From NCBI GenBank assembly GCA_900315495.1, contig OMZJ01000009.1, forward strand, positions 1-64,000: a stretch of 64,000 nucleotides of DNA. Reading direction: 5' to 3'. Positions 30,409 to 48,759 of the stretch are shown piece by piece. Origin of the DNA: an uncultured Lachnospiraceae bacterium (GTDB taxonomy: Bacteria > Bacillota > Clostridia > Lachnospirales > Lachnospiraceae). Positions within the stretch are counted from its first letter, which is position 1; every line of letters begins with the position of its first letter. Under the pieces are notes generated by a model, which was not told the DNA's origin, ran no database searches, and worked only from the letters and a program-made list of their open reading frames with translations. Both the position numbers and the translations under genes were made by a program.

Positions 30409-31983
30409 TCAGTTGTCAGTCAGAGGATAGGTTCCAAATTCATAGCCCTTTGCCCGGGCCCCGTCGATGAAATCCGCCAGCATCTCCATATTGGTCTGCG
30501 ACTTTGCGTGCAGCAGATAAATCGCCCCGTTGTGCAGATGTGACAGCGCAGCCTGCAGGGACTCATCCACCGCCGGCTGGTTGTCCGTATCATAATCGAG
30601 ATAGGCATATGTCCAGAAGACGGTCTTCATCCCCAGATTGTCCACCAGCCCGAGTGCCTCCGCACTGTACTTTCCCTCCGGGAAACGGAAAAGCTTCATC
30701 TGATAGCCGAACTGCTCCTGCATCTGATTGTTGAGCGTTTCGATCTGGCTGGTCTGGTCATCCACAGACAGAGAGGTCATATCCGGATGCGTGCAGGTGT
30801 GATTCCCGAGCTGATGTCCCTCATCGATCATCCGCTGCACCAGATCCGGGCGGTCATCCACAAAATTCTTGGTCAGAAAAAAAGTGACATTGACGCCCTT
30901 TTCCTTCAGGATATCCAGTTCGGTCGCGGTCTGGTCGTTGCCGAAGCCCTCATCCATCGTCAGATAGATGACGGGTTTGGAAGTATCCTGAATCCAGTCG
31001 ACGTTGAACTGCCCCCACTGGCTCTCATACCAGGCCCAGTCGGTGGGAATCATATTGGAATCGCGGTTTTCTTCCGCATAGCCGAAATTAACCGGATCTG
31101 TAGACAGCGTGGAGAGATCTCCCGTCCAGTAGCTCCCGCCGGCAGAAACCGCGGAGGCCGCGGACGATGCCGTGCTGTCTGAGGCAGCCGTCGTGGCTGC
31201 CTCAGACGGTGTTTCTGTCGTCAGATAATCGGATTTGATGTAGGCCGTCTCCCCGTTGTACTGTACGGTACTCCATCCGTCCTGCTCGGAAATCCGGGTG
31301 ACAGAGTCCCCCGCCTCAAGCTTTCCCAGGATTTCCGCGTCCGTGCCCGGTTCCTTCCGAACGTTGACCGTCTGCGTGGCATAGACCGTCACGCCGGTGC
31401 TGTCAGCGGCGGCTGTCGCGGTCGTCTCCGCAATGGTTTCGATCTCTGTGCTGTCGACAGACGCTGCATCGGAAATGTCTTCCGTCTGGACCTCGGTTTC
31501 CGCGACCGTTACCGGCGTTTCCGCTTTTGTCACCTGTGCCGCGTTGTTTCCCCGGTTTCCGCCGGTCAGCCCGGAGATCACCCGGACCAGCCCGATGATG
31601 ATCAGAACAATCACGATCGTGCAGACACCGAAAAATGCAATCACCCTGGCGCGGTAAATCATCCGGTTTCTTCTGCGCCTCTCCTCGATCTGTCTCCTGC
31701 GGGCGGCACTCTGCGTGCGATGCCGCGTCGGCTCCTCGGCGGGCGTGCCGTCTCTCTTTTTGCGTGTACTCTGCGCATGTTCCGATGCACTGCTTCTTCC
31801 CATACCCTGGAATCCGTTTGCTGCCCGCGCGCGGATCGATTTCCACAGGGCTTCCGCCCCTGCGGGCTGGCCGACCCTGCTCTCCCCGTCTGTCCGGCCG
31901 GCTGTCTCCCCGCTATCCGGTTCGTTTTCCGTATCCAGAGTGTCCCCGGAAATATCAGGAATTCTGTTATTCTTATCTTCCAT
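30409..31983 (-). CDS. Membrane-anchored SH3/polysaccharide deacetylase, PdaA-like
   Basis: This 524-residue protein has a charged cytosolic N-terminus of about 110 residues and one membrane segment (VIAFFGVCTIVIVLIIIGLV). Outside are an acidic/Thr linker, a bacterial SH3 domain (VNVRKEPGTDAEILG to AYIKSDYL), an Ala/Ser/Thr linker and a NodB deacetylase domain (about 325-524). Motifs resemble PdaA: YLTMDEGFGN (where most enzymes have TFDDG), GNHTCTHPD (metal His pair), FRFPEGKYS and YLLHAKSQTN. It probably deacetylates peptidoglycan. ATG 31983 has GGGAG about 10 bases upstream and starts 16 bases after the epimerase stop. Confidence 0.88.
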   Translation of the reverse strand: MEDKNNRIPDISGDTLDTENEPDSGETAGRTDGESRVGQPAGAEALWKSIRARAANGFQGMGRSSASEHAQSTRKKRDGTPAEEPTRHRTQSAARRRQIEERRRRNRMIYRARVIAFFGVCTIVIVLIIIGLVRVISGLTGGNRGNNAAQVTKAETPVTVAETEVQTEDISDAASVDSTEIETIAETTATAAADSTGVTVYATQTVNVRKEPGTDAEILGKLEAGDSVTRISEQDGWSTVQYNGETAYIKSDYLTTETPSEAATTAASDSTASSAASAVSAGGSYWTGDLSTLSTDPVNFGYAEENRDSNMIPTDWAWYESQWGQFNVDWIQDTSKPVIYLTMDEGFGNDQTATELDILKEKGVNVTFFLTKNFVDDRPDLVQRMIDEGHQLGNHTCTHPDMTSLSVDDQTSQIETLNNQMQEQFGYQMKLFRFPEGKYSAEALGLVDNLGMKTVFWTYAYLDYDTDNQPAVDESLQAALSHLHNGAIYLLHAKSQTNMEMLADFIDGARAKGYEFGTYPLTDN

Positions 31984-31999
31984 CGTATGCTCCGCTCCC

Positions 32000-32893
32000 T
32001 CAGTCTGTGATGATCTCGTATTCGGTATCAAAGGTTTCCCCCGGACGGCAATGCTGCTCCCACTCTCGGTCTGTCAGTTCTCCCTGGTATCCCGTGACAT
32101 CGCATCGTCCATACCATGGCTCGATGCAGACAAACGGCGCATGTTTCCCCGCCGGGGACCAGACGCCGAAGAGAGGTTCCGGGAACCGGACGCGGACAAA
32201 TTCATGCCCGCTGCCGTCCGCCAGCGCAACATCCGCTGCCTGCCGGTTCTCTAAGATCAATGCATCCTCGTCGAAGAGATGCTCCGTCACCGGAAGCCGG
32301 CCATCCTGCAGTGCATACTGGCGTAGCTTCTTTCCGACCGTCCCGCTGTCAGGATCAATCGTGCGGCTGACTAAGGCGTCCGGCGTACTGCCGTCCTCCC
32401 GGCGAAATACAATGCTGCAGGATTCCAGTTTGCCATTCTCATCGGACGGAGGGCACAGGAATGCCGGATGGGCGCCGATGGAAAAAGGCATCTCTTCCGT
32501 TCCCTCATTGGTCACCTGCCACCGGACGAACAGGGAATGACCTTCCAGGTGGTAACTGATCTGCAGGCAATAAGCAAAAGGATAGACAGAACGCGTCTGT
32601 GAATCCGATGTCTGTACAAAGGAAGCGGCATTCTCAGAGAGCTTTGCACATGTAAAATCCCGGTCTCTGGCAAAACCGTGCTGGCTCATCGGATAGGTTT
32701 TCCCGCCTGTCCGGTATTTTTTCTGATAAACCTGACCCACAAAGGGGAAAAGAACCGGGGACCGACGGCTCCAGTATGCCGGATCGCCGTACCACAGATA
32801 GGAGCGGCCGGTCTGTTGATTCACTATGGACTGAAGCTCTGCCCCGTGTTCCGAAATGACAACCTTCCGCTGTTCATTTTCGATTGTTACCAT
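32000..32893 (-). CDS. Aldose 1-epimerase family protein (LacX-like)
   Basis: The 297-residue galactose-mutarotase-fold protein has SRRSPVLFPFVGQVYQKKY, MSQHGFARDRDF (conserved His) and FSIGAHPAFLCP (second His). CIEPWYGRCDV near the end gives the catalytic Glu. It resembles LacX/YeaD-like epimerases that interconvert sugar anomers. It starts 7 bases after the glycosylase stop and ends 16 bases before the deacetylase, so the three genes form one transcription unit. ATG 32893 follows GAGGTGA. Confidence 0.88.
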   Translation of the reverse strand: MVTIENEQRKVVISEHGAELQSIVNQQTGRSYLWYGDPAYWSRRSPVLFPFVGQVYQKKYRTGGKTYPMSQHGFARDRDFTCAKLSENAASFVQTSDSQTRSVYPFAYCLQISYHLEGHSLFVRWQVTNEGTEEMPFSIGAHPAFLCPPSDENGKLESCSIVFRREDGSTPDALVSRTIDPDSGTVGKKLRQYALQDGRLPVTEHLFDEDALILENRQAADVALADGSGHEFVRVRFPEPLFGVWSPAGKHAPFVCIEPWYGRCDVTGYQGELTDREWEQHCRPGETFDTEYEIITD

Positions 32894-32900
32894 CACTGAA

Positions 32901-33422
32901 TCACCTCTTCTCTCCGCCGGCTTCCGCCGGCAGCGGTCGCCTCATCGCTTCTCCCCACGCCCGGATCAGATCGGGAAGATGCCATGCGGCATTGGCCGGG
33001 CTGGTGGAAGGGCAACCAAACTCCGGCAGGCTCGTCTTCTGGCGCTGATAATGCTGAAACAGGCGGTCTGCCGTTTTCCCGTTGACCAGGATCCGCCGGA
33101 TCGGCGCATTCCGCAGAATGACCGACAGATCCGTCGGCACGGCATTCCGCACCGAAGCATCGCTGGAACCTTCGATGTCACATTCCTGGATCACATCCCA
33201 GAGCGCAAACTGGTGAGACAGGATCCACTGCTTCTTCTCCGGAATGGTAACCGGCACCGGCGTGTTTTCCAGTGCCGCAAGCACCTTCCAGAAACGATTC
33301 TGCGGGTGATTGTAAAAGAACTGTCCCTCCCGGCTTTTCACGCTCGGGAAACTTCCCAAAATCAGAATCTCTGATGAACTGTCATACAGAGGCGGAAACG
33401 GATGGACCACATGTTCTGTCAT
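32901..33422 (-). CDS. DNA-deoxyinosine glycosylase, uracil-DNA glycosylase superfamily
   Basis: The 173-residue single-domain protein has motif 1 LILGSFPSVKSREGQFFY with the following NHPQNRFWKVL, and motif 2 STSPANAAW. The Asn-rich motif 1 is that of family 6 hypoxanthine-DNA glycosylases and Mug-like enzymes rather than classical Ung. It would remove deaminated bases (hypoxanthine, perhaps uracil) from DNA. ATG 33422 follows GGAGG; a 40-residue upstream extension lacks support. It is the first gene of a unit with an epimerase and a deacetylase, a mix with no obvious shared task. Confidence 0.88.
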   Translation of the reverse strand: MTEHVVHPFPPLYDSSSEILILGSFPSVKSREGQFFYNHPQNRFWKVLAALENTPVPVTIPEKKQWILSHQFALWDVIQECDIEGSSDASVRNAVPTDLSVILRNAPIRRILVNGKTADRLFQHYQRQKTSLPEFGCPSTSPANAAWHLPDLIRAWGEAMRRPLPAEAGGEKR

Positions 33423-33560
33423 CTTCCCGACCTCCTGTCTGACCCGCATTTCCGCCCTGCCGGATAACAAACCGCGAAACGCTCTCCGGTCGGTTTTCCC
33501 CTGTCTTTCCTGGAGCGCCGCGGCGTTACACAAAGCTTTCACAGCTTCTCTTCTGGTGCA

Positions 33561-33589
33561 ATTCTACACTGATTTCCGGAAATCATCAA
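33561..33589 (-). promoter_or_regulatory. Promoter with spacer palindrome, glycosylase operon
   Basis: On the minus strand, TTGATG (33584-33589) and TAGAAT (33561-33566) are 17 bases apart. The spacer is filled by the perfect palindrome GATTTCCGGAAATC (33571-33584), a good position for a repressor. Confidence 0.7.
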
Positions 33590-33633
33590 CCGAAAACGAC
33601 GTTTTGTAATGATTCCGTAAAGATTTGTTCACG

Positions 33634-33665
33634 AAAAAAAGCCCCCGGCGGAGGGATTCTCCGCC
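33634..33665 (-). terminator. Terminator of carD
   Basis: On the minus strand GGCGGAG-AATCC-CTCCGCC is followed by GGGGGC and seven T. It lies 43 bases past the carD stop. Confidence 0.88.
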
Positions 33666-33707
33666 AGGAGCACTTCATCAAAAGCCGCGCTAAAACACAG
33701 CTGGTTT

Positions 33708-34235
33708 TCACTGCTCATCCGGATTTTCCACCGGATCGCCAACTGATTCCGCAATATATTCCCTGACCTTCGAGCGGTCAATCTGCAGCGGGATCGCAAG
33801 CTCCCCGTAGAGCTGGTCCTCCGCTGCGTGATAATACTTTTCGTCCACAGCCGTGGATTTCTTCCCACGGGAAAGACGATGTTCCTTACGGAAATAGACG
33901 GTCTTGATCAGCCGGACCAGCTCCCTGCAGTCGCAGCTCTGGATGGCTGATTTATAAACCTTCTCACGGGATTTTTCATCCGGCACATCCAGAGGCTTCA
34001 TCCCGGGAATGTCTTTGATCAGATCGTTGGTCTCCTCGCGCGTGAGGATTTTCCGCATCACAACCTTCTGGTTGGAAACCGGTGAATAGACAGTCGATCC
34101 CTCCGCATAAACCGGAACCAGCGTATAATAGGGTTTCTCCGTAGTTTCGCCATTCATCATTGTGATGGGTCCGACCGCACCTACTCTGCAGACGCCGTCG
34201 ATCCCGTAAACGACATAATCGCCGATCTTGAACAT
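33708..34235 (-). CDS. CarD/CdnL-family transcription regulator
   Basis: The 175-residue protein has an N-terminal CarD/TRCF RNA-polymerase-interaction domain (MFKIGDYVVYGIDGVCRVGA, then YYTLVPVYAEGSTVYSPV). A helical DNA-contacting C-terminal domain (about 85-160) includes SCDCRELVRLIKTVYFRK and ending VREYIAESVG. CarD proteins bind the RNA polymerase beta subunit and stabilise open complexes, often at rRNA promoters. The gene is monocistronic with a near-consensus promoter and a strong terminator. GAGGTGAGGTG precedes the ATG. Confidence 0.92.
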   Translation of the reverse strand: MFKIGDYVVYGIDGVCRVGAVGPITMMNGETTEKPYYTLVPVYAEGSTVYSPVSNQKVVMRKILTREETNDLIKDIPGMKPLDVPDEKSREKVYKSAIQSCDCRELVRLIKTVYFRKEHRLSRGKKSTAVDEKYYHAAEDQLYGELAIPLQIDRSKVREYIAESVGDPVENPDEQ

Positions 34236-34318
34236 GAATTCACCTCACCTCGTCCATACAAAGCCGGATCCGATGGATTTCGGACCAAAGAACAGTCTGA
34301 CAAGCCCGTTCGAATTCT

Positions 34319-34347
34319 ATTATAGCATTTTTCTTAATAATTTGCAA
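34319..34347 (-). promoter_or_regulatory. Promoter of carD
   Basis: On the minus strand, TTGCAA (34342-34347) and TATAAT (34319-34324) are exactly 17 bases apart, about 85 bases before the carD ATG. Confidence 0.85.
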
Positions 34348-34365
34348 TTTTTTCCGAAAAACCCC

Positions 34366-34393
34366 TTGCAGGAAATCGTCATCGGAATATAAT
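34366..34393 (+). promoter_or_regulatory. Plus-strand promoter with no downstream gene
   Basis: TTGCAG (34366-34371) and TATAAT (34388-34393) are 16 bases apart. The predicted transcript starts near 34400 and runs into a very stable hairpin, then antisense into the binding-protein gene. Confidence 0.6.
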
Positions 34394-34442
34394 AGAAAAT
34401 TTTATATCATGCAGCTTGCCGCAGCATGGTACAACAGAAACT

Positions 34443-34484
34443 ATGCAGCAAGGCCCGGCAGTTTCCTGCCGGGCCTTGCTGCAT
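34443..34484. terminator. 19-bp perfect hairpin (terminator or sRNA end)
   Basis: ATGCAGCAAGGCCCGGCAG (34443-34461) pairs perfectly with its complement at 34466-34484 around a TTTC loop. It lies 88 bases past the stop of the minus-strand binding-protein gene and could terminate that operon, although neither side carries a proper T-run. Confidence 0.6.
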
Positions 34485-34572
34485 TGAGACTACTATGAAT
34501 CATAAATTAGGAATTGTCCTGCCTTCTGACAGGCAATCCGCACCGGAAAGCCTGCCGCATTGGCTCATGCCG

Positions 34573-36252
34573 TTACTGATCCAGCTGGACCTCGGACGCC
34601 TCGGTGTTCGGAAGCTTCGTGGAGTTTCCGGCCTCGTAAGCCTCTTTTCTCTGCTCGGTGACTTCTGCGTAGCCGGCATCCGCATACTGCTTTGCTGCCT
34701 CTTCGTACTTGGCATCAAACTCGTCCGGGCTGCACATCGTCAGCTCATCGCGAAGCTCCTTGTAGAGCTCGACCAGTGTCTGCTGATATTCCACTTCCGC
34801 ATCGATGGTGACAGAGTACATCGGGTTCGGGATGCCCCAGCCTGCTTCCGCCACCTTGGACTTGGTGTTGTAGTAGTTCACCACATCCTCGGTGAAATCC
34901 TGCTTGAGGTTGTGCGGCAGCATTGCGGAGACCTGATCCTCCATCGTTCCGGCCTGACGGCCTTCCTTGATGATGGACCAGTAATCCTTGTTGTTGTTGT
35001 AGCCCTGCTTGTATTCACCGTCGTAATCCGACACAGTGACCGGCAGTCCGTTGTCGTCGTAATTGAAGTTCTCGCCCTCGTAGCCCCACTGGAACGTGAA
35101 GAGGTTGTCCGGCTGGATGAGCCATTCCATGTACATCCAGGCAGCCTTCATCTCGTCGTCCGTCGCATCATTTGCAAATCCGATCAGCATGCCGAACGGA
35201 TTGTCGATACGGTATCCCGGGGTCTCTCCGGATGTCTCATCAGACTGTGTGACAACCGGCTTGATGGCAAGCTCCGCGTCCGGATTGGTCTCATAGAAGG
35301 AGGTCAGCCAGTCCATCGTCGCGGACGTATATCCGCTGTAGGAATAGCTCTTGCCGTTGATGAAGTTGGTCTTTGCCTGCTCATCGTCGATCAGATAATA
35401 CTCCGGATCGGTAATGCCGCTGTTGTAGTCCTGGTTTGCATAGTACAGAACCTTCTTGTTCGGCTCCCATCCGAGAGACGGAATGTTGTAGTCGCCGTAC
35501 ATTGCCCACTCTTCCTCATCGAGCGGCCACTCACGGTAATTATAATTCTGGTCGGATCCGACGCCGGTCACCATGGACCCGCCGCCCGGATGCTCGCAGA
35601 TGCCGGCATCCATGATCTTGGTCATGGCGTCCACATACTCCTCGCGGTTTGTCGGAACGTGGTCATATCCGACCTGCTTCAGCCAGTCCATACGGACGAA
35701 GGTCTGGAAGGTATACTCGGTATTGTAATTCGGCCGCAGTGCTGCGACGAAGTAGGTTTCCCCGCCCATCTGGGAATACTGGTCCAGGCCGTTGTCCACC
35801 ATCTGTTGATAATAGGTCGGCGCGACCTTGGCGAACTCCTCCATGTCAAACGTGCGCATGTAGCCGTCGTTTGCCCACTGCGTGACCTTCGGATAATCAT
35901 ACTCCTCCAGGACGGTCGGCAGGTCGTTGGATGCCGCCAGCAGCGAATAGGAAGTCAGCACATCCGAACGGGTGATCGGGACATACGTTACTTTAATGTT
36001 GTACTTGTCGCCGAAGTTCGTCTGAATCCAGTTGGTCCAGTAATTGTTCGTGACATCCGGAACACCCTCGACGCCGCGGTCATAAACCGGGATCTGCAGC
36101 TCCACCGTGTCGGCAAACGGCTCCCAGTCGGGATCCGTGGTGCCGGTTTCAGCGGCCTCTGTGGTCTCTTCCGCGAAAGCAGGCATCGCCATACCGATTG
36201 CCATCACACCGGTCAGAGCCAGCGCAGACATTGCTTTCCAGTTTTTCCTCAT
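34573..36252 (-). CDS. LplA-like extracellular solute-binding protein, copy 2
   Basis: This 559-residue exported sugar-binding protein of the LplA/YtcQ type (CUT1-like importers) starts MRKNWKAMSALALTGVMAI. It has an AFA cleavage site without a lipobox Cys, then an acidic EETTEAAETG segment. Fold markers include VELQIPVYDRGVEGVPDVTN and WMYMEWLIQPDNLF. It is a near-duplicate of the protein encoded just upstream; most blocks are identical, with differences scattered. It is the last gene of the permease operon. ATG 36252 is preceded by AAAGGAGG, and a hairpin lies before that site. Confidence 0.9.
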   Translation of the reverse strand: MRKNWKAMSALALTGVMAIGMAMPAFAEETTEAAETGTTDPDWEPFADTVELQIPVYDRGVEGVPDVTNNYWTNWIQTNFGDKYNIKVTYVPITRSDVLTSYSLLAASNDLPTVLEEYDYPKVTQWANDGYMRTFDMEEFAKVAPTYYQQMVDNGLDQYSQMGGETYFVAALRPNYNTEYTFQTFVRMDWLKQVGYDHVPTNREEYVDAMTKIMDAGICEHPGGGSMVTGVGSDQNYNYREWPLDEEEWAMYGDYNIPSLGWEPNKKVLYYANQDYNSGITDPEYYLIDDEQAKTNFINGKSYSYSGYTSATMDWLTSFYETNPDAELAIKPVVTQSDETSGETPGYRIDNPFGMLIGFANDATDDEMKAAWMYMEWLIQPDNLFTFQWGYEGENFNYDDNGLPVTVSDYDGEYKQGYNNNKDYWSIIKEGRQAGTMEDQVSAMLPHNLKQDFTEDVVNYYNTKSKVAEAGWGIPNPMYSVTIDAEVEYQQTLVELYKELRDELTMCSPDEFDAKYEEAAKQYADAGYAEVTEQRKEAYEAGNSTKLPNTEASEVQLDQ

Positions 36253-36273
36253 TTCTTGATATCCTCCTTTGAT

Positions 36274-36298
36274 CCGGGCCCGCTTCCGGCGGGCCCGG
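36274..36298 (-). repeat. GC-rich hairpin between the duplicated binding-protein genes
   Basis: CCGGGCCCGC and GCGGGCCCGG pair perfectly over 10 bp around a 5-base loop. It has no T-run and sits about 10 bases ahead of the second gene's ribosome binding site, so it could stabilise the upstream mRNA or reduce read-through. Confidence 0.65.
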
Positions 36299-36369
36299 TA
36301 TTGATCGCGGCTGTAAAGCAAACCGCGGTACTTCCTTCTCAAAGAGCAGTGTCCCGGCGGCTGTCAGTC

Positions 36370-38046
36370 TCAGTCGTCCAGAGTAACCTCAGAAGCCTCC
36401 GTATTCGGGAGCTTGGTGGAGTTTCCGGCCTCATAGGCTTCTTTGCGCTCTTCTGTAATCTCGCCATATCCGGCATCCATGAAGCGCTGTGCGTCTTCCT
36501 CGTACTTGGCGTCGAATTCCTCCGGGGTGCACATGGTCACTTCATCGCGGATCTCCTTATAGAGTTCGGTCAGTGTCTGCTGATATTCCGTCTCGGAATC
36601 AATCGTGACAGAATACAGGCAGTTCGGAATCCCCCAGCCGGCCTCTGCGACCTTCACCTTGTCGTAATACCAGTCAACAATATCCTGCGTGAAGTCCTGC
36701 GGCAGGTCATGCGGAAGGTTGTTGGAGATGATATCCTCGATGGTTCCGGCATTTCTGGCCTCAATGGTGATGGACCAGTAGTCCTTGTTGTTGTTATAGC
36801 CCTGAACATAATCTCCGCTGTAATCCGTTACAGAAACCGGAAGACCCTTGTCATCATAATTGAAGTTCTCTCCCTCAATGCCCCACTGGAAGGTAAAGAG
36901 GTTATCCGGCTGGGTAAGCCACTCCATGTACATCCAGGCGGCCTTCACTTCATCGTCCGTCGCATTATTGGAGAATCCGACCATCATACCGAACGGATTG
37001 TCTGTACGGTAGCCAGGGGTCTGGCCCGTGGTCGGATCGGTTTCACTGACAACCGGCTTGATGGCAAGCTCCGCGTCCGGATTGGCGTCATAGAAAGCCG
37101 TCAGCCAGTCCATGCTTGCGGAGATGTATCCGCTGTAGGAATAGGATTCGCCGTTGATGAAGTTGGTCTTCTCCTGCTCCGTGTCGATCAGGTAATACTC
37201 CGGATTGGTGATGCCGTTGTTGTAATCCTGGTTTGCGTAATACAGGAACTGCTTGTTCGGATACCAGCCGAACGCCGGAATGTTGTAATCGCCGTACATC
37301 GCCCATTCCTCTTCGTTCAGCGGCCACTGGCGGTAATCATAGCTCTGGTCGGAGCCGATGCCGGTCACCATGGTGCCCCCGCCCGGATGCGCGCAGATTC
37401 CGGCGTCCATGATCTTGGTCATGGCATCCACATACTCATCGCGGGTCATCGGGACGTGATCATAGCCGACCTGCTTCAGCCAGTCCATGCGGACGAAGGT
37501 CTGGAAGGTATAGGACGTGTTGTAATACGGACGAAGCGCGCAGCAGAAATAGGTTTCTCCGTTCATCTGCGTATACTGCAGCTGGTTGTTGTCCACCATT
37601 CTCTGATAATAGGTCGGTGCAACTGCTGCAAAGTCATCCATGTTGAAGGTGCGCAGATATCCGTCGTTGGCCCACTGGGCGACCTTCGGATAATCATACT
37701 CCTCCAGGATGGTGGGAAGGTCTCCCGCCGCTGCCAACAGAGAATAGGAAGTCAGCACATCCGAACGGGTGATCGGTACATAGGTGACCTTGATGTTGTA
37801 CTTGTCACCGAAGTTCTCCTGGATCCAGTTGGTCCAGTAGTTGTTCGTGACATCCGGCACCCCCTCAACGCCGCGGTCGTAAACCGGGATCTGCAATTCC
37901 ACCGTCTCAGCGAACGGCTCCCAGTTGGTGGTATCCGCTGTTTGCTCTGCACCGGTTGTCTCCTCGGCAAGTACCGGAACCGCTGCTCCGGCTGCCATTG
38001 CTGCGGACAGCGCAATGGCGGAAAGGGTACGAAGCTCTTTTCTCAT
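36370..38046 (-). CDS. LplA-like extracellular solute-binding protein, copy 1
   Basis: The 558-residue exported binding protein starts MRKELRTLSAIALSAAMAA. Its signal peptide ends near PVLA and no lipobox is visible; an acidic EETTGAE segment follows. It shares almost the whole length with the downstream copy, including NYWTNWIQ, GYDHVPMTRDEYVDAMTKIM and a common C-terminus EAYEAGNSTKLPNTEASEV. It presumably delivers an oligosaccharide to the LplB/LplC-type permeases encoded directly upstream. ATG 38046 follows AAAGGAGG. Confidence 0.9.
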   Translation of the reverse strand: MRKELRTLSAIALSAAMAAGAAVPVLAEETTGAEQTADTTNWEPFAETVELQIPVYDRGVEGVPDVTNNYWTNWIQENFGDKYNIKVTYVPITRSDVLTSYSLLAAAGDLPTILEEYDYPKVAQWANDGYLRTFNMDDFAAVAPTYYQRMVDNNQLQYTQMNGETYFCCALRPYYNTSYTFQTFVRMDWLKQVGYDHVPMTRDEYVDAMTKIMDAGICAHPGGGTMVTGIGSDQSYDYRQWPLNEEEWAMYGDYNIPAFGWYPNKQFLYYANQDYNNGITNPEYYLIDTEQEKTNFINGESYSYSGYISASMDWLTAFYDANPDAELAIKPVVSETDPTTGQTPGYRTDNPFGMMVGFSNNATDDEVKAAWMYMEWLTQPDNLFTFQWGIEGENFNYDDKGLPVSVTDYSGDYVQGYNNNKDYWSITIEARNAGTIEDIISNNLPHDLPQDFTQDIVDWYYDKVKVAEAGWGIPNCLYSVTIDSETEYQQTLTELYKEIRDEVTMCTPEEFDAKYEEDAQRFMDAGYGEITEERKEAYEAGNSTKLPNTEASEVTLDD

Positions 38047-38230
38047 AAGTGATCCTCCTTTATTCTGCACCGGCAATCTGCTTCACCGGCAGTGTCTCTG
38101 AAAAAGCGAAAGTATATCATCCCCGCAGATGCGGGTACGGCTCCAAACCACAGAAGAAGCCGTGAAAATTTCAAGCATTGCCCCGCGGATGTGAATACGG
38201 CACCTCTGCGCAGGAATCCGATGAATCCGT

Positions 38231-39169: not shown

Positions 39170-40123
39170 TTACAGCAGTCCTTCTTCGCCGAGCAGCTTC
39201 GCAAAGCGGTCAGCAAGGAGAACCAGAATCAGGCCGACCAGAGACTGGAACAGGCCGACAGCGGTAGACATGCTGAACTTGGACGCCTGCAGACCTTTTT
39301 CGTAGATGTAGATGGCCAGCTGATACTGGAACTCTCGCACCTGTGTATTGCCAAAGACATCCAGCCGTTCGAAGTTGCTGTTCATGAGTTTTCCGAGCTG
39401 CATGATGAGGAGGGTGACAATCGTGCTCTTGATGCCCGGCAGGGTGATGTGGATCATCCGCTGCCAGCGGGACGCGCCGTCGATCATCGCGGCCTCGTAC
39501 AGATCACCGCTGATACTGGTGATTGCTGCCAGATAGAGGATGGTGCCCCATCCCATGCTCTGCCATACGCCGATCAGCAGGTAGCTCCATGCCCAGTGCC
39601 ATTTCTCGGTCAGGAACGGAATGCCGCTGTCAATCCAGTGCAGGTCGTCCCGCAGAATGACATTGATGATGCCGCTGTCCGGCTTGAACAGCTGGTAAGC
39701 GACACTGCCGACGATAACCCAGGACAGGAAATGCGGCAGATACAGGATCGTCTGCGTAACTTTCTTGAACCGCGGGAACCGGAGTTCGTTGAGCATCAGC
39801 GCCAGAATAATCGGCATCGGGAAGCTGAACGCCAGATCCAGCAGGTTGAACACGATGGAATTGCGGAGGGAGCGGATGAAATCGCGATCCTTGAACACCT
39901 TCTGGAAGGTCTGCCAGCCCACCCATTTGCTGCCGGCATAACCCTTTGCCGGTTTGTAATCCATAAAGACCATGCGGAGTCCCGGATACGCAGCATAATT
40001 GAACAGGAAAACCAGAACGATCGGGAACAGCAGCATCAGATACAGCTGCCAGTCGCGATGCCAGGCTTTCTTCCACGTGATGTTCGTCTTCACGACGACT
40101 TTGTTTTCGGATCGAACGCTCAT
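39170..40123 (-). CDS. Sugar ABC transporter permease (LplB/YtcO-like)
   Basis: The 317-residue permease has six predicted membrane segments (first: LYLMLLFPIVLVFLFNYAAY). PGLRMVFMDYKPAKGY follows, and the EAA loop LYEAAMIDGASRWQRMIHITLPG lies near residue 220. The branch matches LplB-type permeases that import complex oligosaccharides. It is the first gene of a four-gene unit: permease, permease, binding protein, binding protein. AGGAGG lies just before the ATG, and a good promoter lies about 160 bases upstream. Confidence 0.93.
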   Translation of the reverse strand: MSVRSENKVVVKTNITWKKAWHRDWQLYLMLLFPIVLVFLFNYAAYPGLRMVFMDYKPAKGYAGSKWVGWQTFQKVFKDRDFIRSLRNSIVFNLLDLAFSFPMPIILALMLNELRFPRFKKVTQTILYLPHFLSWVIVGSVAYQLFKPDSGIINVILRDDLHWIDSGIPFLTEKWHWAWSYLLIGVWQSMGWGTILYLAAITSISGDLYEAAMIDGASRWQRMIHITLPGIKSTIVTLLIMQLGKLMNSNFERLDVFGNTQVREFQYQLAIYIYEKGLQASKFSMSTAVGLFQSLVGLILVLLADRFAKLLGEEGLL

Positions 40124-47429: not shown

Positions 47430-47499
47430 ATTTTCCTCCTGTAGATGGATAACCGACGAGAGCGGCAGATGAACTGCCGCTCTCGGTTTGTTTCTCTGA

Positions 47500-48759
47500 T
47501 CAATCTTCATCCAGCGACGGGTAGTGTTTCCCGGTTTTGTCGAACAGCTGCTCATCCTTCATCGCGCGCACCTTGATCGGAAGGCCGAACAGGCTGATGA
47601 AGCCTGCGGAATCCGCCTGGTTGTAGACATCATCCTCGCTGAAGGTCGCCATGCCGGAAGAATACAGGCTGAACGGAGAGGTGACGGAAGCCGGAATGAT
47701 GTTGCCCTTGTAGAGCTTGAGCTTCACATCGCCGGTCACAGCCTCCTGCGTGGAATCCACAAAGGCGGAAAGCGCCTTGCGCAGCGGTGTGTACCACTCG
47801 CCGTCATACACCAGCTCGGCAAATTTCTGTGCCGCGATGTTCTTGAAGTGCTTCGTATCCTTGTCGAGGGTGATCTCCTCCAAACGGTCATGCGCCGCAT
47901 ACAGGATGGTGCCGGCCGGTGTCTCGTAGACACCGCGGCTCTTCATGCCGACCAGACGGTTCTCAACGATATCGAGAATGCCGACACCGTTCGCGCCGCC
48001 GACCTTGTTCAGCGTCTCGATGATCTTCACCGCATCCATCTCTTCGCCGTTCACCGCGGTCGGAACGCCCTTCTCGAAGTGAATGGTGACATAGGTGGGT
48101 TGATCCGGTGCCTGCTCCGGGGAAACACCCAGCTCCAGGAAGCCCGGCTTGTTGATCGGCGCCTCGTTGGCCGGATCCTCCAGATCCAGACCCTCGTGGC
48201 TCAAATGCCACATGTTCTTGTCCTTGGAGTAGTTGGTCTGGCGGTTGATCTTAAGCGGAATGTGATGCGCCTCGGCGTAATCGATCTCCTTGTCGCGGGA
48301 GGTGAGCTCCCAGAAGCGCCACGGAACGATGACATCCGTGCCCGGTGCGAAGTGCTGGATGGCCAGCTCAAAGCGGACCTGGTCATTGCCCTTGCCGGTG
48401 CAGCCGTGGGCGATGGCATCCGCGCCTTCCTTCTTCATGATCTCCACCATGTGCTTGGCGATCAGCGGACGCGCAAAGGAGGTGCCCAGGAGATACTTTT
48501 CGTAATTTGCGCCGGCCTTGATCGTCGGAACGATGAAGTCCTCCGCGAACTCTTTCTTGAGATCCAGAATGTACAGCTTGGAAGCGCCGGTTGCCTTCGC
48601 CTTTTCCTCAAGGCCCTCCAGCTCGCCTGCCCCCTGACCGACGTCCGCGGATACCGCGATAATCTCAGCACCGTAGTGCTCCTTCAGCCACGGAATCAGG
48701 ACGGACGTATCCAGTCCGCCGGAATAAGCGAGAACGATTTTATTATATTTCTTTGCCAT
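47500..48759 (-). CDS. argG: Argininosuccinate synthase
   Basis: The 419-residue ArgG has the N-terminal ATP loop [33 protein letters not shown] and the substrate blocks [14 protein letters not shown] and [15 protein letters not shown]. It joins citrulline and aspartate using ATP. AGGAGG sits before the ATG. The promoter about 120 bases upstream overlaps an ARG-box-like site. argF, argB-J and ornithine genes are not in this window. Confidence 0.97.

Follow-up and report, generated by a model that had tools for sequence, protein, structure and literature searches.

Locus layout and gene neighbourhood

The palindrome considered here lies in a 337-bp intergenic region between two genes that are both encoded on the minus strand, namely a CarD-family gene and a binding-protein-like gene. 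The relevant features of the window, i.e., the whole 64,000-nucleotide stretch that was analysed, are the following, in order of their coordinates:

33708–34235, minus strand: CarD-family gene P0001 (carD), 175 aa (Pfam CarD_TRCF_RID, E=1.2e-12)
34347 to 34319, minus strand: probable carD promoter, TTGCAA-17-TATAAT with a TG before the -10 (promoter scan)
34366–34371 (TTGCAG) and 34388–34393 (TATAAT), plus strand: promoter-like TTGCAG-16-TATAAT, 9/12 consensus, no gene ahead
34405–34431, either strand: small hairpin with imperfect pairing, between the promoter-like site and the 19-bp stem, folding on both strands
34443–34484, minus strand: perfect 19-bp stem with the 4-base loop TTTC, proposed operon terminator, minus-strand tail AGTTTCTGTTGT
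34573–36252, minus strand: binding-protein-like gene P0002, 559 aa, second of two tandem paralogs and last gene of the operon (from operon context)
36370–38046, minus strand: first tandem paralog, 78% identical to P0002
38231–39157, minus strand: BPD_transp_1 permease (Pfam)
39170–40123, minus strand: BPD_transp_1 permease (Pfam)

From this arrangement we infer a minus-strand ABC-transporter operon that consists of the two permeases and the two tandem binding-protein-like genes and ends at 34573. Since neither paralog matched any entry in Pfam or NCBIfam (both searched), and P0002 had no match in the PDB, the label "binding protein" reflects operon context, and the sugar-binding function given in the initial annotation is putative. 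Matches to the tandem genes (34573–38046) at E≤1e-40 exist in 6 of 120 genomes of the family, with their own genome counted. When 59 fetched loci, of which 56 were carD loci and many were short, were searched with P0002, a homolog appeared only in L087 and L088, which belong to genomes G001 and G002, respectively; the adjacency of carD and P0002 was therefore not seen elsewhere among these 59 loci. A literature search found nothing on this locus.

Between the two paralogs lies another hairpin (36274–36298), with 10 bp that are all G-C, which ends a few bases 5' of the AAAGGAGG of the second gene and could set the ratio or the stability of the two paralog messages. On the plus strand, crude hexamer gene calling placed no gene between the long hairpin and 40670, in agreement with the initial annotation. 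An open reading frame of 1208 aa (34426–38052) runs antisense across both tandem genes; it has no Pfam match and is probably a by-product of codon usage.

Structure and distribution of the 19-bp stem

The two arms of the stem (34443–34461 and 34466–34484) are exact reverse complements, just as had been described, and 13 of the 19 base pairs are G-C. The predicted fold energy amounts to -42.3 kcal/mol on the minus strand, versus -40.8 kcal/mol on the plus strand. Among 20 first-order Markov sequences, each of 64 kb, perfect stems reached 11 bp at most; the 19-bp stem is thus far beyond chance, and the palindrome is no chance product. The smaller hairpin at 34405–34431 may represent a second, weaker hairpin beyond the terminator proposed below.

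Two simple origins of such a palindrome were considered and rejected. A dispersed repeat is contradicted by the lack of further copies of the stem, at E≤0.001, within the genome it comes from and of any exact 14+14 stem match in a collection of genome contigs, which may leave out the genome of the window itself, and a known RNA family by the lack of any Rfam match at gathering thresholds over the whole window. Among 60 relatives, none has a DNA match that covers the stem, and two other genomes of the genus hold no convincing homologous stretch, the best match outside the own genome being one of 26 bp with E 0.02.

Position and direction of the hairpin

Read in the direction of the mRNA, the hairpin starts at nt 89 past the stop codon of P0002, so that the minus strand carries a stable G+C-rich hairpin (19 bp, 13 G-C pairs) shortly 3' of a stop codon, as is looked for in an intrinsic terminator. 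The tail that follows the stem on this strand, AGUUUCUGUU, has 6 U in 10, is interrupted, and passes the rule of the terminator scan, which lists the hairpin on the minus strand only; over 33000–36000 the scan counts 3 terminators against a mean of 2.6 in shuffles, i.e., not above them. The sequence past the stem on the plus side, TGAGACTACTATGAA, contains no T-run. The T-tail score is 1.20 on the minus side versus 0.99 on the plus side. Given that the U-tract is poor on the minus side as well, the assignment of direction depends less on the tail than on position.

The behaviour of comparable stems in the same genome bears directly on this assignment. In a sample of 292,334 bases, about a tenth of the genome (the window plus 20 further stretches), the crude hexamer method called 220 genes, and 17 perfect stems measure 11 bp or more, of which 5 lie within called genes and 12 are intergenic. 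By its carD matches, the sampled genome looks Lachnospiraceae-like. All 12 intergenic stems are located at most 100 nt downstream of the 3' end of a called gene, a zone that comprises 28.5% of the intergenic bases; if the stems are independent, the probability of such placement is about 3e-7, or 1e-6 when the 34443–34484 stem is left out. The T-tail score, taken in the direction of the gene, is below 2.0 in 7 of the 12, this stem included. Hence, in the sampled tenth of the genome, long perfect intergenic stems mark the 3' ends of genes, often with weak U-tracts, and for this reason they should not by themselves be read as small-RNA signals.

Hairpins were also sought behind the homologous genes, with a set of nine binding-protein-like genes: P0002, its paralog, and one gene each from G001, G002, G068, G136, G150, G035 and G133. 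Under a rule of 7 or more pairs, at least 4 of them G-C, within 100 nt of the stop, 8 of the 9 genes have a hairpin, which starts 8–89 nt beyond the stop that the script had chosen; among the 8 paralogs and homologs other than P0002, 7 have one (8–72 nt), and the G150 homolog has none. In the case of G001 the script took a second in-frame stop, and the true distance is therefore about 61 nt rather than 37. The hairpin sequences are unrelated, so what is kept is the position and not the sequence. This is as expected of a terminator and difficult to reconcile with a conserved small RNA.

The position of the stem, the placement of all 12 intergenic stems and the hairpins behind homologous genes together point to termination, and the palindrome at 34443–34484 is very probably the intrinsic terminator of the minus-strand ABC-transporter operon. 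The initial annotation had offered as an alternative that the stem simply ends the binding-protein mRNA, and it is this alternative that gains support.

The plus-strand promoter-like site and the RNAs it might produce

The TTGCAG-16-TATAAT site is indeed present on the plus strand at 34366–34393, and its -35 box is separated from the -35 of the divergent carD promoter by 18 bases, close to the 20 or so first estimated. It combines a perfect -10 with a -35 that matches in 3 of 6 positions, and was accordingly missed by the promoter scan, which requires 4 of 6. At least one such site arises in 7.5% of shuffles of the 337-bp intergenic region (P ~0.075); together with the 3/6 match at the -35, this puts the site within the range of chance. 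When a simple rule (TATAAT plus at least 3/6 at the -35, spacing 15–19) was applied to the 292,334-base sample, 51 sites were obtained. Of these, 30 fall within genes, 16 in antisense and 14 in sense orientation, and 14 are upstream of a gene; 3, among them the 34366 site, are intergenic without a gene in front of them, 3 lie at edges and 1 is far upstream. Most likely the 34366 site is an incidental feature of the AT-rich DNA that precedes the carD promoter; at most, it might give rise to antisense or pervasive RNA at a low level. As a promoter-like site that lacks a gene, it resembles the orphan and antisense start sites of pervasive transcription (PMC10469882).

The initial annotation had regarded this site as an orphan promoter that feeds a small RNA or an antisense RNA. 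For the former, a transcript starting near 34400 and ending at 34484 would measure 85 nt, which agrees with the length first given, and would share the long stem with the operon as a bidirectional terminator. The perfect -10, the symmetry of the stem, which folds nearly as well on the plus strand (-40.8 kcal/mol), and a z of -8.5 for the fold of the 91-nt plus-strand sequence speak for such an RNA, but that z is driven by the palindrome itself, the -35 is weak, and, with no T-run in the plus-strand tail and no terminator listed by the scan on that strand, an 85-nt RNA ending at 34484 would do so without a canonical terminator. The missing Rfam match and the 0/60 relatives matching over the stem point the same way, although a lineage-specific RNA would fail these comparisons likewise. 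Overall, the small RNA appears improbable, and the proposal of an orphan promoter feeding it or an antisense RNA is without positive support. Slightly less credible again is a lineage-specific version, in which the palindrome would serve as a two-way terminator for a plus-strand RNA that is complementary to the 3' UTR of the binding-protein mRNA and tunes its termination or stability.

A longer antisense RNA, which would extend from the same site across the 3' end of the binding-protein gene to modulate that gene, is equally hard to credit. An AT-rich promoter-like site is present, and because no plus-strand terminator is listed there, a transcript could run on; against this, chance readily produces such sites, many of them lie inside genes in this genome, and the neighbourhood is not conserved, with the carD and binding-protein homologs of G001 located about 16 kb apart on one contig.

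Conservation in relatives, which had been named as a check on the proposal, fails for the stem, whereas for the promoter stretch there is a single 60-bp match at 77% identity (G040, E 2.9e-4; 1 of 60 relatives). The matching sequence covers a TTGACA-17-TATAAT ahead of a possible ORF, a resemblance that would mildly favour the plus-strand site as a real promoter type; G040 gave no carD match, and nothing marks the match as the same locus. Outward-facing sites were further scored upstream of carD in 55 regions, comprising the window and 54 others (L064 and L065 were dropped as partial matches, and the regions taken for L021, L026, L030 and L031 are shifted, their matches being partial or not starting from residue 1). 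Of the 55 regions, 21 contain an outward site that scores at least 9/12, where shuffles would lead one to expect 13.0; an inward site of this quality is present in 28. The outward sites vary in place and sequence among the regions. A conserved outward promoter near carD was thus rejected, as the excess is modest and no element is shared.

Comparison with known terminators and proposed mechanism

Intrinsic terminators typically have stems shorter than 19 perfect base pairs, and the 34443–34484 stem differs from them in its length. In Bacillus subtilis, NusA and NusG act on terminators whose stems have A-U pairs at the foot and whose U-tracts are interrupted (PMC8060035); the present hairpin resembles these Nus-assisted terminators in its location past a stop codon, its A-U stem foot and its interrupted U-tract. 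The likeness to I-shaped terminators, described in PMC12403871 as hairpins with few U's after the stem that are common in GC-rich genomes, lies in the strong stem and the poor U-tract; in contrast to them, the minus tail with 6 T in 10 counts as U-rich by the rule given there (at least 3 U in 10 nt).

For the operon terminator, a leftward-moving RNA polymerase would form a hairpin of -42 kcal/mol followed by AGUUUCUGUUGU, and would be expected to terminate just past the stem. Since the U-tract is interrupted and an A-U pair lies at the foot of the stem, NusA and NusG perhaps aid termination here, as described for B. subtilis. A further role of the hairpin would be to protect the mRNA at its 3' end and to prevent read-through from the operon into carD, for which a probable promoter (34347–34319) and a terminator-like hairpin (33671–33641, from the terminator scan) are present. 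The hairpin might alternatively be mainly a stabiliser of the mRNA 3' end, with transcription ending elsewhere, e.g., through Rho or at a hairpin farther on, and the RNA then being trimmed back as far as the stem. The great stability of the stem, its weak U-tract and the 10-bp hairpin between the tandem genes, just 5' of the ribosome-binding site of the second, would suit that role, but in the sampled genome a long stem at the 3' end of a gene often comes with a weak U-tract, and poor U-tracts are tolerated in B. subtilis (PMC8060035); this explanation is accordingly unlikely. Read as an operon terminator, the hairpin is an ordinary operon end, and the finding is of minor importance.

Further hairpins in the window

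Further long perfect hairpins occur in the window. One of 13 bp (31177–31207) is contained in an SH3/polysaccharide-deacetylase gene (30409–32031). Another, of 12 bp (47457–47485), is located about 15 nt past the stop of a minus-strand gene (47500–48759) and falls within the called start of the next gene, which is probably placed too early.
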